The position numbers were made by a program, and so were the translations under genes. Under the pieces are notes generated by a model. That model searched no databases, had not been told where the DNA came from, and was given only the letters and a program-made list of their open reading frames with translations. From Flammeovirgaceae bacterium SG7u.111 (GTDB taxonomy: Bacteria; Bacteroidota; Bacteroidia; Cytophagales; Flammeovirgaceae), in the NCBI GenBank assembly GCA_034044135.1, contig CP139021.1:4789635-4853634 (forward strand): 64,000 bases of DNA. Reading direction: 5' to 3'. Positions 5,921 to 25,278 of this stretch are shown here, one piece after another (the first letter of the stretch is position 1; the number at the start of each line of letters is the position of its first letter).

Positions 5921-7576
5921 ATGAAAAAATATATAATCACACTCTTATTAATTTCGGTTTTTGCTTCGTGTGAAGACGTACTCGAAGAAACCAACCGAAA
6001 TGCCACGAACGCAGATTTGCTGTACACCACAGAAAGTGGCTATGAAAGCCTTATTAATTCTTGCTATTCTTTTTCCCGTTTATGGTACGGGAAAACCGAA
6101 GGCGAAGCATTTACAGATTTAGGCACTGACTTATTTACCGCTGCTAGCGGATGTAGCGGTAGGCCTTTAGCCTATTATGCTTCTGATTTCCAAAGCAATG
6201 TAGATGTAATTAAATATATGTGGGAAGGGTTGTACAGTGCATTGAACACATGTAATACAGCTATTGCAAGGGTTGAAGAAGCTCCTCTTTCAGATGACCT
6301 CAAAAAATTACGCGAAGGAGAAGCACGGTTTTTACGCGCATTTTATTTGTGGCACATCACAGAAACATGGGGCGAAGCTATTTTATACACGGATGAAGTA
6401 AGCAGTGTAATCACTACAGCTACCCATACTTCTGTTGATGGTTTTTATGAACAAATTTTTACCGATCTCGATCTTTCCATCGGTTTATTAAACGGAACTG
6501 CTCCAAAAGAAAACGGACGTGTTACCCAAGTAGTAGCAAAAGCTTTTAAAGCAAGAATGCTTTTGACAAGAGGCCAGTTCAGTGAAGCATCTGCCTTGGC
6601 CAAAGAAGTGATCAATACGGGTGCATTTAACATGTACGGTACTTTTGCAGAGACTTTTGATATCAACAATAGCGAAGGCACTACTAATAACGAAGCAATT
6701 TGGTGGGTGAATTACAACGCAGACAACACCTTAAACCTTCATTTTGATGGAATAAGAGGTCTTTGGCTTTGGGAAGGTGGCAATCATGCACAAGCCTTTT
6801 CTGCTATGGTTTATTGGACATTTCCTGGGATGTGGGTTTCTCCTGACGTGAATAGGCCAAGTGTCCAAAATATGCCTACCCTAGCCTTCTTAGATATGTT
6901 TGACGAAACCGTCGACGAGAGATATGATGTCACTTTTCGTACGGTTTACCATGTAAATGACCTTTCTTCTGTAGGAGATACTGGACTGGAACTAGGAGAT
7001 ACCGCAGTAGTTTGTACCAAATACGCGGTGTCCCAAGAAGTAAAAGACAGCAAGCCTTACAAATTTGTAGATAGAAGTTCTGTGTACGATGAAAGTGGAA
7101 ATATCATCAACTCAAGAGAATACTTCGTCTCGATGTTCAAATTTCAAGACCCCACCCGTGCAACTGGTTGGGAATCAGAAAGCAAAAGAGATATGTATGT
7201 GATGCGCATCTCTGAAATGTACATGATTGTAGCTGAAGCGGAAATGATGCAAGGTAATATGACCGAAGCTGCTACTTATATAAATGCAGTTCGCGAAAAG
7301 AGGGCCATAGATGGCAAAGAACCTGAAATGAAAATTACCGAAGCAGACATCGACATCGACTTCATACTTGATGAAAGAGCAAGAGAGTTTGCAGGAGAGC
7401 ACTTGAGATGGTTTGACCTCAAAAGAACGGGTAAGCTTGTGGATAGGGTAAGAAAATACAACCCCGACGCAGCACCAAATATCCAAGATTTCCACAATGT
7501 GAGACCATTTCCTTTGGCAGAACTAGACGCCATCACAAACAAAGACGAGTTTAAACAAAACCAAGGATATAATTAA
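5921..7576 (+). CDS. SusD/RagB family glycan-binding lipoprotein
   Basis: A 551-residue outer-membrane lipoprotein with signal peptide MKKYIITLLLISVFASC, the lipidated Cys being residue 17. The N-terminal TPR-like SusD fold (YESLINSCYSF, EARFLRAFYLWHITETWGE) and the C-terminal SusD motif (FILDERAREFAGEHLRWFDLKRTGKL) are clear, and the chain ends in the usual NQGYN. SusD lids the SusC barrel and binds glycan at the cell surface. It is cotranscribed with susC (21-base gap) and followed by a terminator-like hairpin. Length is normal for the family. Confidence 0.95.
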   Translation: MKKYIITLLLISVFASCEDVLEETNRNATNADLLYTTESGYESLINSCYSFSRLWYGKTEGEAFTDLGTDLFTAASGCSGRPLAYYASDFQSNVDVIKYMWEGLYSALNTCNTAIARVEEAPLSDDLKKLREGEARFLRAFYLWHITETWGEAILYTDEVSSVITTATHTSVDGFYEQIFTDLDLSIGLLNGTAPKENGRVTQVVAKAFKARMLLTRGQFSEASALAKEVINTGAFNMYGTFAETFDINNSEGTTNNEAIWWVNYNADNTLNLHFDGIRGLWLWEGGNHAQAFSAMVYWTFPGMWVSPDVNRPSVQNMPTLAFLDMFDETVDERYDVTFRTVYHVNDLSSVGDTGLELGDTAVVCTKYAVSQEVKDSKPYKFVDRSSVYDESGNIINSREYFVSMFKFQDPTRATGWESESKRDMYVMRISEMYMIVAEAEMMQGNMTEAATYINAVREKRAIDGKEPEMKITEADIDIDFILDERAREFAGEHLRWFDLKRTGKLVDRVRKYNPDAAPNIQDFHNVRPFPLAELDAITNKDEFKQNQGYN

Positions 7577-13627: not shown

Positions 13628-15250
13628 ATGAAAAAATACCCTAAATTAACTTATTCAATACTTTTTGCTTTGTTTGCTTTCGTATCTACCCATACAGAAG
13701 CACAGTATGTATCCGAAGCTTGGTCGCCAGATTTGGGTGATGGAAATTACAAAAACCCTGTCATCCATGCGGATTATTCCGACCCTGATATTTGTAAGGC
13801 AGGAGATGATTTTTACATGACCTCTTCTTCTTTCAATTCCGTTCCCGCTTTGCCAATCCTACATTCAAAAGACTTGGTAAACTGGGAATTGATCAACTAC
13901 GCAATCCCTTCTTTCCCAGGTAGCTATTTCGATACTCCCCAACATGGAAATGGGGTTTGGGCACCCTGTATCCGCTACCACGAGGGCATGTTCTACATCT
14001 ACTGGGGCGATCCAGACCGAGGTATTTACATGGTACAAACCGATGACCCAGCGGGAGAATGGTCTGCGCCAATCTTGGTAAAAAAAGCATATGGAAACAT
14101 AGACTCCAGCCCGCTTTGGGATGATGATGGAAAGGTATACTTAGTCCATGCCTTCGCCCATAGCCGAGCGGGTATCAAGAGTACGCTCCAAGTGGTGGAG
14201 TTGAGCAAAGACGGTTCGCAAATTATGGACAAGGGAACAATCGTTTTCGATGGGCATAAAGACCATGAAACTATTGAAGGGCCTAAGTTTTACAAAAGAA
14301 ATGGGTACTACTACATTTTCGCACCAGCGGGTGGAGTTCCCACTGGTTGGCAACTTATATTGCGTTCTAAGAACGTGTATGGTCCTTATGAGGAAAAAAT
14401 CGTACTTGCCCAAGGCGAAACACCCATCAATGGTCCTCACCAAGGTGGTTGGGTAGAGCTGGAAAACGGTGAAAACTGGTTCTTCCATTTCCAAGACAAA
14501 GGAGCATATGGAAGAATTCTCCACTTGCAACCCGTAGAGTGGATTGACGATTGGCCCATCATGGGCAACGACAAAGATGGTGATGGTACAGGAGAACCTT
14601 TCCTTGTTCATAAAAAACCAAACTTGCCCACACAAAAAGTGGTAAATCCAATAGAATCGGATGAATTTGACTGTAAAACCTTAGGGCTACAATGGCAATG
14701 GAATGCCAATCCCCAACCAGGGTGGTACAGCCTAGCTGCTAAAGAAGGGCAGCTGAAGTTGAACACAAAACCAACTTCAGAATTAGCCAGTAATTTGTGG
14801 CTTTCTCCTAATATTCTTCTCCAAAAATTCCCCGCAGAAGAGTTCAAAAACACCGTCAAAATGGATGTGTCTAACCTGAAAGATGGCGAAGAAACTGGCT
14901 TATTGATTTTTGGACTGGACTATGCGTCTCTGGTAGCCAAGAAGAAAAAAGGAGAGGTTTACATCGAACAGCGAGTTTGCCTACAAGCGGAAAAAAATAA
15001 GGAGGAGAAAACACTTAACTCAGCTAAAATTGTTGGCACAACAGTTTGGTTAAGATCCGAAGTAAAAAAAGGAGCACTGGTCAACTTTTCTTATAGCACA
15101 GATGGGAAAGTTTTCAAACCAATTGGACAAGAGTTCACTGCCAAGGAAGGCAAATGGGTAGGAGCTAAATCAGGACTCTACGCCAAAAGAGACAAAGAAA
15201 CAGGGCTTGGAGGCTACGTTCTTATCGATTGGTTCCATGTTGAGAAATAG
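13628..15250 (+). CDS. Glycoside hydrolase family 43 with C-terminal beta-sandwich (xylosidase/arabinofuranosidase type)
   Basis: A 540-residue secreted enzyme. I start it at the ATG two bases after the GH105 stop, which gives a signal peptide (residues 1-25, ending HTEAQ); a longer in-frame start overlaps the previous gene. The five-bladed propeller carries the GH43 triad: base Asp in HADYSDPDICK, Asp in GNIDSSPLWDDDG and acid Glu in ETIEGPKFYKR. Residues from about 345 to the end form a concanavalin-like GH43 C-terminal domain. It probably removes xylose or arabinose side chains from xylogalacturonan or rhamnogalacturonan I; the exact sugar is not readable. Confidence 0.92.
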   Translation: MKKYPKLTYSILFALFAFVSTHTEAQYVSEAWSPDLGDGNYKNPVIHADYSDPDICKAGDDFYMTSSSFNSVPALPILHSKDLVNWELINYAIPSFPGSYFDTPQHGNGVWAPCIRYHEGMFYIYWGDPDRGIYMVQTDDPAGEWSAPILVKKAYGNIDSSPLWDDDGKVYLVHAFAHSRAGIKSTLQVVELSKDGSQIMDKGTIVFDGHKDHETIEGPKFYKRNGYYYIFAPAGGVPTGWQLILRSKNVYGPYEEKIVLAQGETPINGPHQGGWVELENGENWFFHFQDKGAYGRILHLQPVEWIDDWPIMGNDKDGDGTGEPFLVHKKPNLPTQKVVNPIESDEFDCKTLGLQWQWNANPQPGWYSLAAKEGQLKLNTKPTSELASNLWLSPNILLQKFPAEEFKNTVKMDVSNLKDGEETGLLIFGLDYASLVAKKKKGEVYIEQRVCLQAEKNKEEKTLNSAKIVGTTVWLRSEVKKGALVNFSYSTDGKVFKPIGQEFTAKEGKWVGAKSGLYAKRDKETGLGGYVLIDWFHVEK

Positions 15251-20488: not shown

Positions 20489-22173
20489 CTAATCCACCTC
20501 CAACCCAAGCTTGTCCCTTAGCTCACTCAGAAGAGGAAATTTTTCGAGGAGGTACTCGTACTTTTCGTGGGAGGTGTAAGGTTCTAGCGTTCCTTTTGCC
20601 GCTTCGCCCACCGTGGCTTCAAACTCTATCACATCGTTTTTCAGCCTGGAGCTTAGCATCTGGTAGAGCATGGGAGTGAGCAGCCTGAACCGCTCTAGCA
20701 AGAGGCGGTTATTGAGCTTCACCACAATCTTGAACTCCCCTTGGAGGGAAAGTTCACCCTCATCCATTATGTACTGCTGTTGCTTATCGTTTACCTTCTT
20801 TTTTACCTCTTCTTTTATCTCGTTCCAGTGGGTCTGGAGTTTGTTAAGATCAAAAGGAGTTCGTCGGTTGCCCCGTTCACCTTCACGCTTGGCGCGCTCT
20901 TCGGCTTCTTGTTTTCGCTTCTGGTCATCCGCTTTTATCTTCTGCTTTACCTGGTCTATACTGGCGGGAACATTCGCCGTGGGCTTCACCGAAATACGGT
21001 TTTTCTTCCAAGCTAGCAGTTTGCTGCCTGTGAGGGGCTTTTCGTCGCTAACACTTTTTGCTACGCTATTTTTTTTTTACCCTGCATCTCCGCAGCCAAC
21101 TTTATCGCATTGTTGATGTGGCTCATCTTCATGAGCGCCACCTCCACATGGAGCCGTTGGTTTTTGCTGCTTTTGTAGTTCAGGTCGCATTGGCTACCTA
21201 TGTTGAGGGCAGTCATCAGGAAGGAAAGCTTGGCATCGACTGCTTGCTTTTTGTATTGTTCCCGCACATTGTCGGCAACTTCCAGCAGCTTGCTCGTTTC
21301 AGGGTCTTTGCAGACCATCAGGTTGCGCAAGTGCTCGCACAAGCCCGTAATGAACAAGTGCCCGTCAAAGCCCTTGCGGAGAATCTCATCAAAAATCGAC
21401 CATGCCTGCGTAAGGTCTTCGCCCATCAGCGCTTCGGTGATCTTGAAAAAGTAATCGTAATCGAGGATGTTGAGGTTTTCCAGCGTGCCTTTGTAGGTCA
21501 CATTCTTGTCGGTAGAAAACGTCACAATCATATCAAAAAGCGAAAGCGCATCACGAAGCGCACCGTCGGCTTTTTGGGCAATGAGGAACAACGCCTCAGG
21601 CTCGGCAGTAATGCCCTCTTTTTGGGCAATCCGTGCCAAGTGGTCGGCTATGTCCTGTACAGAGATTCGGTTGAAATCGAAAATCTGGCAACGCGACAAA
21701 ATCGTAGGAATCACCTTGTGCTTTTCCGTAGTCGCCAAAATGAAAATGGCATACGGCGGCGGCTCCTCCAGCGTCTTCAAAAACGCATTGAAGGCCGCAT
21801 TGGAAAGCATGTGCACCTCATCTATAATATACACCTTGTACTTGCCCGACTGAGGCGGGTAGCGCACTTGGTCAACTAAGTTCCGAATATCTTCGACAGA
21901 GTTGTTAGATGCGGCATCAAGTTCATAGATATTAAATGAGTTGGACTGATCGAGCACCGTTTCTTCGGTCTGCTCTTCGTGGTTGATCTTCCGTGCAAGA
22001 ATCCGTGCACAAGTAGTCTTGCCCACGCCCCTTGGCCCGCAAAAAAGAAACGCTTGCGCCAAGTGGTTGCTCTCGATCGCATTTTGCAGTGTGGTAGTGA
22101 TATGCGACTGCCCTACCACATCTTCAAAAGACACGGGACGGTACTTCCTAGCCGATACTACAAAATTTTCCAT
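20489..22173 (-). CDS. dnaX: DNA polymerase III subunit tau/gamma, expressed through a -1 shift at an A10 run
   Basis: The clamp-loader ATPase. The zero frame runs from 22173 to a TAG at 21061 and gives a 370-residue gamma-like product. It has Walker A (GPRGVGKTTCA), Walker B (YIIDEVHMLS), the sensor region (FILATTEKHKVIPTILSRCQIFDF) and an alpha-helical collar domain. Just before that stop is a run of ten A. The -1 frame then continues without interruption to 20489 and encodes a Lys/Glu-rich tail and a C-terminal domain (QGEFKIVVKLNNRLLLERF), so slippage gives a tau-like product of 561 residues. This is the arrangement known in E. coli (ribosomal -1 frameshift) and Thermus (transcriptional slippage). 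A sequencing miscount in the homopolymer is the alternative explanation. Confidence 0.88.
21061..21080 (-). promoter_or_regulatory. Slippage site in dnaX: A10 run followed by an in-frame stop
   Basis: On the coding strand the codons read GGT AAA AAA AAA ATA GCG TAG. The ten A (21069-21078) contain the A-AAA-AAA heptamer in the correct phase for -1 slipping, and the zero-frame stop follows two codons later. In the -1 frame the next codons are open (AAT AGC GTA GCA). Downstream, GTTAGC and GCTAGC can pair as a 6-bp stem around a smaller loop, a possible stimulator; that pairing is a suggestion only. Confidence 0.7.
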
Positions 22174-22824: not shown

Positions 22825-22854
22825 TTGCGTGGAATAAATAATTTAGTACATTTG
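22825..22854 (+). promoter_or_regulatory. Bacteroidota-type promoter for a candidate small RNA
   Basis: TTG at 22825-22827 and TACATTTG at 22847-22854, separated by 19 bases, match the Bacteroidota -33/-7 consensus (TTG, 19-21 bases, TAnnTTTG). No + strand gene follows for about 9 kb, so the promoter should serve the structured segment directly downstream. Confidence 0.7.
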
Positions 22855-22860
22855 TATCGA

Positions 22861-22956
22861 AGCAAATATTTAGTGTTTTGCACTAAATAATTCTTTTTCA
22901 TAGCTGGTTGAAAGAATCACAAGGGGTAGATGAACATCTACCCTTGTGTCTTTTCT
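22861..22956 (+). ncRNA. Candidate stand-alone small RNA of three consecutive hairpins
   Basis: A roughly 95-base segment that starts about 7 bases after a consensus promoter and ends in a terminator. Hairpin 1 is a perfect 9-bp stem (TATTTAGTG 22867-22875 with CACTAAATA 22881-22889, loop TTTTG). Hairpin 2 has a 7-bp stem (ATTCTTT 22890-22896 with AAAGAAT 22911-22917). Hairpin 3 (22918-22948) is a 14-bp stem with one bulged G. It contains no open reading frame of note and lies between two - strand genes. I do not recognise it as 6S RNA, tmRNA, RNase P RNA or SRP RNA; its size and shape suggest a trans-acting regulator. The exact start is an estimate. Confidence 0.6.
22918..22956 (+). terminator. 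Terminator hairpin of the candidate small RNA
   Basis: Arms 22918-22932 and 22935-22948 pair with one bulged G (CACAAGGGGTAGATG against CATCTACCCTTGTG) and are followed by TCTTTTCT at 22949-22956. On the other strand no T run follows, so it is oriented mainly for + strand transcription. Confidence 0.7.
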
Positions 22957-23011: not shown

Positions 23012-24232
23012 TCAATTTGACTTACTTCCATCTCTCAAATCTTCAGGTCGGCTGTATTGCGGATCGGAGAGCAGATCATAATCCGTCAGGCTCAATACAA
23101 ATGCTTTCAGGGCCACTTTATCATCCTTATTTAACCTAACACCACCTCTTTTCACCTGCTTCATGAGTGGGTGCGCATTTTGTGTATCCACCAATCCATC
23201 CGAATAAAAATCTATTACTTCATCTAGCGATGTGTAGCGGCCATCGTGCATGTAGGGGCTTCGCACAGCAGCATTAATGAGCGATGGTGCTCGGTAAGCT
23301 CCTTTGTCTTTCACATCAGCCGTAATGGCAAAGCGGTCTTTGGAGTCGAAAAATGATTTATCTTTAGCATTGTTGTAAAACAGATTGGTGGTCATCAGTA
23401 CCGAACCGCCATGACAGTGAAAGCAATCACCCTCTTCTGAAAAAAACAATTCCATTCCCCTTGTTTCCAAAGCAGTAAGTTCGGCTTCTTCCCGCATGTA
23501 CTGATGGAACTTACTTCGGTACGAAACGATGCTCCGCACAAACTGGGCAATCGCCTTGCTTATCCTATCGATATTGACCTCTTCACTTCCAAAAGCATCT
23601 CGGAACATAGGCTTGTAGCTATCAATCCCTGCAATGGTTTTTACCGTTTGCTCTATGCTCCCGTTCATTTCGTGAGGCGCAGCTATGCTCATCCACACCA
23701 AAGATTCTATGTTTTGATAATGAAAACTACTGTCCGCCGGAACTTGATAACTGGACGAACCTAGCAATTCATTGTCTTCATGCACAAACCCGTTCCACAA
23801 ATACCCTTTATGGTTATAGACCAAGTTTACCAGAGCCATCCCTGTGTGCGAAGTCTGCTTTCCTTCGGGGTACGTTGCCGAAGGCAGTCCTTTTGGATAA
23901 ACCTGATCAGCCTCTACTGGGGCAAAATCGAAGCCTTTTTCCTGATTGTGGCATGAACTACAGCTCATGAGCGAGTCGGGGTGCGTCCTGCCCGAAAGGC
24001 GACCATCGTAGAATAGATACCTCCCCAGCTTCACTCCTTCTACCGTCATCGGGTTATCGGAAGGAATGTTCAAGTTACGAGGGAAATAATCCATATCGGG
24101 AAACTCATAGGGAGTGGGCAAATAAAACTCCGTTTCCCCAGTGCTTGGGTTCACATCTTGTTGGCAAGCATTGAATATCGCCAACCCAAAAAACAACGTT
24201 GAACAAAAAAGTAACAATCTAGCAGTTTTCAT
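23012..24232 (-). CDS. Di-heme cytochrome c peroxidase/MauG family protein, probable MbnH-type partner
   Basis: A 406-residue lipoprotein (signal ending IFNAC) of the bacterial di-heme cytochrome c peroxidase/MauG superfamily. Two c-type heme motifs are visible: CSSCH (about residue 92) and CFHCH (about residue 272). The regions YRAPSLINAAVRSPYMHDGRYTS and LSGRTHPDSLMSCS are typical of the family. It is encoded 41 bases downstream of an MbnP-like gene on the same strand. In characterised MbnPH pairs the di-heme enzyme oxidises a Trp of MbnP to kynurenine, allowing copper binding. The same role here is inferred from pairing and family, not proven. Confidence 0.85.
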   Translation of the reverse strand: MKTARLLLFCSTLFFGLAIFNACQQDVNPSTGETEFYLPTPYEFPDMDYFPRNLNIPSDNPMTVEGVKLGRYLFYDGRLSGRTHPDSLMSCSSCHNQEKGFDFAPVEADQVYPKGLPSATYPEGKQTSHTGMALVNLVYNHKGYLWNGFVHEDNELLGSSSYQVPADSSFHYQNIESLVWMSIAAPHEMNGSIEQTVKTIAGIDSYKPMFRDAFGSEEVNIDRISKAIAQFVRSIVSYRSKFHQYMREEAELTALETRGMELFFSEEGDCFHCHGGSVLMTTNLFYNNAKDKSFFDSKDRFAITADVKDKGAYRAPSLINAAVRSPYMHDGRYTSLDEVIDFYSDGLVDTQNAHPLMKQVKRGGVRLNKDDKVALKAFVLSLTDYDLLSDPQYSRPEDLRDGSKSN

Positions 24233-24273
24233 TTATAGAATAGTTGAGGTTGGTAGGAATAATTTGATAATAA

Positions 24274-25092
24274 TCAGAAGGCCATTGGAGGCAAGATGGA
24301 AAAAACATCTTTTCCATTTTCGCAAGCCAAGCCCATCGCTTCTTGGTTTTGCATGATCTTGCCCCCTATTTGGTCCAGATCATAGATAGTAGGATTTTCA
24401 AACCATTTATCTACATTCATCACTAGCGTGATCGAATTATTTTTCTCTTTTTCAAACTGGAATCCCTCCAAAGGAAGCGTGACTTCAAACCAATTTTGGA
24501 CAAAACCAATGACTTCTCCTTGTCCATTCCTCCTCTGCCCCACTCCCAAATGCAAGTTGAAAGCATCTCGCTCTTGGCTGGCATTTTCCCAAAAGCCATT
24601 GAGCTTCATGTAATGATAGCCGCCCTCTTTACCTCCCAAATGCATGGGCCAGAGCATGTCGCTTTCGGGTGGGTCGGTAAACTGGTAAGGCTTGTTTTTT
24701 TCACCCCTCAAACCAAAAGTAAAAGCAATAGCAGTATAATTCCCTTCAGGTAACTCATCGGCAATTTCCCAGCTTAGGCTTTCTGGAATATCCGTATCTA
24801 CGTAATGGGAAAAGCCTTTTGAATCTAGCCGAAGCTCCTCCCCACTTTCCTTCACCAATTGTACATCTGAAATAAACCACTGAATCTCATTTACTTCGTA
24901 GCGATTTCCAGCTGCATTGATATACATCAACGTATCTACCACCAGCGGCTTTCCCTCTACCCAGTGCTCAAATTCTAAAACCACCCCCATTTCTTGCTTG
25001 GCAACCTCTTGCTTCACTTGGGCGCATTGCATGCAGAATAGAAGGGGGAATAATATAAATAAGGCAATCGAACAATTTTTAAATGAAAACAT
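24274..25092 (-). CDS. MbnP-like copper-binding lipoprotein
   Basis: A 272-residue lipoprotein (Met at 25092, or an upstream in-frame Met at 25101) with lipobox LLFCMQC. The mature domain fits the MbnP family: VLEFEHWVEGKPL near the N-terminus, NEIQWFISDVQL, GFSHYVDTDIPESLSWEI, a LWPMHLGGKEGGYHYMKLNG segment (several His and Met) and AFNLHLGVGQRR. MbnP proteins bind copper in the periplasm after Trp oxidation by MbnH. Several Trp remain as candidates for modification. It forms a two-gene unit with the di-heme enzyme downstream. Confidence 0.85.
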   Translation of the reverse strand: MFSFKNCSIALFILFPLLFCMQCAQVKQEVAKQEMGVVLEFEHWVEGKPLVVDTLMYINAAGNRYEVNEIQWFISDVQLVKESGEELRLDSKGFSHYVDTDIPESLSWEIADELPEGNYTAIAFTFGLRGEKNKPYQFTDPPESDMLWPMHLGGKEGGYHYMKLNGFWENASQERDAFNLHLGVGQRRNGQGEVIGFVQNWFEVTLPLEGFQFEKEKNNSITLVMNVDKWFENPTIYDLDQIGGKIMQNQEAMGLACENGKDVFSILPPMAF

Positions 25093-25278
25093 GGCTCTCA
25101 TTTTAGTAGGTTAAAAAAGTGATGGAGGTGATTCACTTATCTCATCAACTCAAGGTCCTGCTTATCGGCAAAAACCTTCTCATAGATCACACATAAAATT
25201 ACCAAAGGGTTGGGTGGGAAATTGGGGAATTTGACCAAAAAGGTGATTTGTACCACAAAGGAATGAGTTTGTGCTATT

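Follow-up and report, generated by a model that had tools for sequence, protein, structure and literature searches.

A putative small RNA family of the Cytophagales with a conserved core complementary to start codons

Locus architecture

The region described here lies between two genes in a window of 64,000 nucleotides, the whole stretch of DNA that was analysed, from Flammeovirgaceae bacterium SG7u.111. The flanking genes are dnaX (21061–22173, − strand) and the gene of a MauG-like di-haem peroxidase (23012–24232, − strand). The dnaX gene is split: the N-terminal ORF (21061–22173) ends just past a run of ten A (about 21069–21078), and the tau-like C-terminal part is in another frame (20489–20989, − strand). 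Some dnaX genes make both gamma and tau via programmed frameshift or slippage, and the layout in the window resembles these. On the other side, the MauG/MbnH-like di-haem enzyme gene adjoins a gene for an MbnP-like copper-binding protein (23012–25101, − strand). The features between the flanking genes are as follows.

22825–22854, + strand: putative sigma-A type promoter of Bacteroidota (TTG 22825–22827, 19 bases, TACATTTG 22847–22854), read directly and with a box that recurs in homologues
22859–22956, + strand: predicted small RNA of about 92–98 nt, placed by the position of the box and the terminator
22867–22889, + strand: hairpin 1, 9 bp (22867–22875 with 22881–22889), with covariation over 19 homologues
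22890–22917, + strand: optional hairpin 2, 7 bp (ATTCTTT 22890–22896 with AAAGAAT 22911–22917), not conserved in paralogues
22899–22914, + strand: invariant core, the putative seed, CATAGCTGGTTGAAAG, with the start codon AUG at the end of its complement; target evidence comes from relatives
22899–22909, + strand: minimal seed CATAGCTGGTT, within the core
22918–22956, + strand: intrinsic terminator, stem 22918–22932 / 22935–22948 with one bulged G, then TCTTTTCT

The 5' end of the predicted RNA was set 5 nt past the −7 box. The letters of TTG-19 bases-TACATTTG are those of the original prediction, and the coordinates bear out its stems of 9 and 7 bp and its 14-bp terminator-like stem, the last with one bulged G and a T-rich tail. 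The region was also said to hold no reading frame, which is correct for the core: it has neither a start codon nor a frame, and a small protein was rejected for this reason. The statement that no + strand gene is present within 9 kb is wrong, as the nearest long upstream + strand ORF ends at 15250, about 7.6 kb upstream. The promoter had been called almost ideal. The string alone is not significant (7 sites in the window against about 3.6 expected from shuffles), but it recurs in homologues; thus, the case rests on the relatives.

Compared with dinucleotide shuffles, the predicted folding of the stretch is better by 3.75 SD. In the predicted fold, pairing of GAAAGA with the U-tract competes with the 7-bp middle stem. 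Hairpin 2, if formed, would show the core in its loop. According to the Rfam search, no match at the gathering threshold is present across the window, and only noise was obtained at E<=10 for the sRNA region; the earlier impression that the RNA is not of a housekeeping type known to Rfam agrees with this. The likeness of AUAGCUGGUU to helix 35a of 23S rRNA was considered weak.

Distribution of the gene family

Using blastn with the 186-base region, matches were obtained in 16 of the 58 related genomes, and the homologues have in common the promoter, the hairpin, TTTYCATAGCTGGTTGAAAG and the terminator. A 20-base motif was searched for in 291 genomes of the order and detected in 42 (reversed control, 0); the 16-base core CATAGCTGGTTGAARG was detected in 81 of 390 Cytophagales genomes (reversed control, 2). 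The core is usually present in single copy, as in the window's genome, and 9–12 copies per genome are found in Microscilla-like genomes. The matches in the named collection are almost all from Cytophagales (Flexithrix, Bernardetia, Thermoflexibacter, Microscilla, Sporocytophaga, Splendidivirga and Agaribacillus). Outside the order, matches at two mismatches were no more frequent than in the control. The exact core search gave none in three large families (f11, f13 and f19), except for one f11 genome.

No match to the core was found in the plasmids searched. The viral contigs contain 16 exact 16-mers, and the hairpin and terminator accompany the core in only one of them (L398). On this phage contig, which carries a terminase gene with Shedu-like and Schlafen-like genes nearby, the sRNA copy with hairpin, core and terminator occupies 7080–7165. 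Tandem clusters of 2–3 core copies with a spacing of 190–510 bases were seen at three places (G033:C62:19152–19932, G113:C42:53934–54690 and G149:C104:9381–9584). In a genome of another order (L089), TTTTCATAGTTGGTTGAAGG followed by a terminator is located around 1500; it may be a distant relative or a chance match. The core sequence is absent from the literature searched, and no Cytophagales sRNA was found there either. The comparisons support a previously undescribed sRNA family of the order Cytophagales, with what appears to be a real gene at 22825–22956.

Conservation of the promoter, hairpins and core

Hairpin 1 was analysed over 19 homologues: 96% of the cells are paired and 8 of the 12 pairs have two-sided changes (0 of 500 shuffles). 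The letters of the terminator stem also vary in relatives with the pairing kept. The exact TAnnTTTG box is present in 56 of 80 distinct copies with a terminator, compared with 3 of 29 core matches without one. The promoter, hairpin 1 with its compensatory changes, the core and the terminator are thus kept in relatives whose flanking genes differ, and the stand-alone sRNA gene of the original prediction is supported; the covariation that it had called for is seen at hairpin 1. Its three hairpins are upheld in part: hairpin 1 and the terminator are conserved, whereas the middle one is optional and its loop sequence is conserved instead. As the middle stem is absent from many paralogues, it is probably dispensable.

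Two architectures were observed. In the window type, the TAnnTTTG box ends about 40–50 nt 5' of the core and the hairpin fills the gap, so that the core of the window copy is preceded by the 5' hairpin and is not at the 5' end. In the second type (Microscilla-like and Sporocytophaga-like genomes), the box ends 3–8 nt 5' of CATAGC, which would place the 5' end of the RNA at the core or immediately 5' of it. Many paralogue RNAs would thus start almost at CATAGC, with the core as the seed and then the terminator; the paralogues of the f15 and f16 genomes have such a single-stranded 5' seed followed by the terminator. This arrangement is expected for a 5' seed and supports the sRNA reading.

The conserved object is the core itself, which is far more constant than the rest of the RNA. 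CATAGCTGGTT is constant in the 80 collected copies because it was used as the search string; the blastn homologues and the near-miss sites provide less biased checks of conservation. The near-miss sites are without terminators, with few exceptions (L089). In the 80 copies, the bases 3' of CATAGCTGGTT are G/A, A, and then mostly AAG or AGG.

Gene neighbourhood

At 16 loci, drawn from several families and including duplicate records of one genome, a DEAD-box RNA helicase gene lies 5' of the sRNA gene in the same orientation. The distance is about 110–310 nt (L026–L030, L044, L050, L051, L057, L063, L068 and others). In other families, the window included, the neighbours differ and the helicase gene is not adjacent. 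Since the neighbours differ between families, cis-regulation is unlikely.

Complement of the core at start codons

ATG forms the end of CTTTCAACCAGCTATG, the complement of the core. Exact matches to all 16 bases of this complement occur twice in G127, a Cytophagaceae-like genome; at both sites, the ATG is the likely start of an ORF with a signal-peptide-like N-terminus. Complements with one mismatch are located at the starts of a GIY-YIG-like gene in the same genome and of a comF-like gene in another (G114). The target scan was performed by patterns, and start codons were judged via open reading frames, not annotation. The word TTAACCAGCTATG gave 17 matches in 34 genomes of RNA-carrying families (199 Mb; a few of these genomes are without the exact core), compared with a mean of 2.6 for its 31 sister words in TTAASSWSSTATG. 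It gave 0 matches in the 114 Mb of 22 RNA-negative genomes, where the chance of finding none is about 5e-4.

The start codons of plausible ORFs account for 12 of the 17 matches; for the control loci with sister words, the figure is at most 4 of 27. The excess at start codons corresponds to P = 0.0006–0.004 once orthologues are collapsed; these values are somewhat optimistic, because TTAACCAGCTATG was picked after the first targets had been seen. Among the 12 sites are four comF orthologues, a RAYT transposase, a GxxExxY protein, a four-helix-bundle protein, a ThuA-domain protein and exported proteins. Several of these family names were read from the N-termini; ThuA was assigned by Pfam, and one four-helix-bundle gene by TIGR02436. 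The predicted target duplexes have energies of −21 to −29 kcal/mol. As far as sequence comparison can establish them, the gene family, its covarying 5' hairpin and the excess of start-codon complements in RNA-carrying genomes are demonstrated.

The window's own genome has no full core complement at a start codon, which speaks against the masking of start codons, as does the position of the window's core behind a 5' hairpin. Near-complements in this genome and in its family relatives are mostly not at start codons. Some wobble sites in the window's genome may be starts (L356, L368, L373, L374 and L376), with no excess over the control. The window's own copy may have start-codon targets of this kind.

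Alternative explanations

The constancy of the core could have another origin. It may be a protein-binding site, and the RNA a decoy or cofactor, e.g. of an RRM-1 protein or the DEAD-box helicase, rather than an antisense RNA. We consider this unlikely. The core is indeed far more constant than the rest of the RNA, multi-copy RNAs can act as sponges, the helicase gene precedes the sRNA gene in several families, and all seven RNA-positive genomes tested, as well as the window's genome, encode an RRM-1 protein. However, RRM-1 genes are also present in 2 of 4 RNA-negative genomes, the window and many other loci have neighbours other than the helicase, and the excess of exact complements at starts, found in RNA-positive genomes only, is left unexplained. 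A similarly low probability is given to the explanation that this excess is an accident of shared leaders, with AACCAGCTATG being part of the sequence 5' of genes that are multi-copy or inherited vertically, irrespective of the RNA. Several of the matched genes look multi-copy (RAYT transposase, GxxExxY, four-helix bundle and GIY-YIG), and the whole leader is common to the comF orthologues. On the other hand, similarly designed words occur less often and seldom coincide with starts, and TTAACCAGCTATG is absent from RNA-negative genomes. Moreover, most four-helix-bundle genes in the same genomes are without the site, and thus the site is no fixed part of that family.

Two further explanations concern the gene itself. 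A cis-acting leader, attenuator or riboswitch would suit Bernardetia-like and some other genomes, where a gene in the same orientation starts 13–170 nt past the core. Such an element is highly improbable, as the downstream gene of the window is convergent, the downstream genes vary between families, and the terminator at the end of the copies has a T-run of its own. Least probable of all is a repeat or mobile element (REP-like), or a set of chance hairpins: multiple copies in some genomes and the copy on phage contig L398 would fit, but the window's genome has one copy, the promoter is at defined distances, the hairpin covaries and the terminators differ in sequence. A REP-type repeat in particular was rejected in view of the few copies, the own promoter and the changing hairpins.

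Proposed mechanism and comparison with known systems

To our knowledge, few trans-acting sRNAs are known in Bacteroidota, mainly from Bacteroides. Bacteroidota do not rely on Shine–Dalgarno pairing, and RbpB, which binds the FopS/GibS sRNAs, is a protein of the RRM-1 class. The locus has the general features of a trans-acting sRNA: its own promoter, an intrinsic terminator, no reading frame and a conserved stand-alone gene. Complementarity of the conserved seed to mRNA initiation regions is seen as a statistical excess in relatives. The gene probably encodes a stand-alone, trans-acting, base-pairing sRNA of a Cytophagales-specific family that masks start codons. The sRNA would be made from its own sigma-A promoter and end at the intrinsic terminator. 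Its invariant 5'-CAUAGCUGGUUGAAAG is predicted to pair with sites resembling 5'-CUUUCAACCAGCUAUG, in which the AUG serves as the start codon. By covering the start signal of certain mRNAs, to which the core is complementary, such pairing would probably block initiation and switch off the translation of these mRNAs. Both the transcription of the sRNA and the repression of its targets are deduced from sequence. An RRM-1 protein may be a partner of the sRNA.

A broader picture is offered tentatively, as slightly less than an even chance: an ancient regulon of the Cytophagales in which a single, almost invariant seed is directed against start codons. It would consist of a core sRNA, in many cases encoded next to a DEAD-box helicase gene, and a growing set of paralogues that share the seed, differ in their terminators and are occasionally phage-borne; together they would mask the AACCAGCUAUG starts of exported, comF-like and mobile-element-like genes. 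If the sRNA assignment is true, an order-wide Cytophagales family exists outside Rfam and the literature searched. It would also provide a ready target rule, AACCAGCUAUG at the start codon, testable in cultivable Sporocytophaga, Flexithrix or Thermoflexibacter.

The best explanation is that the Cytophagales sRNA works like FopS and GibS of Bacteroides, in which ribosomes are kept from the initiation region by a single-stranded seed that pairs with it (PMC11697453, PMC7366714); homology is not claimed, and FopS is compared by description only. FopS of B. thetaiotaomicron is multi-copy (14), with a single-stranded conserved 5' seed, an intrinsic terminator and canonical Bacteroidota promoters (PMC11697453). 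It also binds near start codons, and a phage copy is reported, as for the Cytophagales sRNA (PMC11697453). It differs in its described hosts, the Bacteroidaceae, and in its susC-type target mRNAs (PMC11697453); the Cytophagales sRNA belongs to another order and has other predicted targets. The core gene of the Cytophagales sRNA has an extra 5' hairpin and a single copy in the window's genome, and it gave no Rfam match. FopS and GibS have many paralogues; the window's genome has the one copy, and some relatives have up to 12. GibS of B. thetaiotaomicron is intergenic and about 145 nt long with a terminator, and its conserved unstructured seed pairs across start codons (PMC7366714). It has two seeds in the 5' portion and no reported 5' hairpin before the seed, and is known only within Bacteroides (PMC7366714). 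Rfp18 of Flavobacterium psychrophilum differs more in detail: its pairing is predicted via the third stem-loop, its targets are proteases, and it belongs to the genus Flavobacterium (PMC9723704). Like the present RNA, however, it is a conserved Bacteroidota sRNA with stem-loops, and its deletion alters the mRNA levels of predicted pairing targets (PMC9723704).
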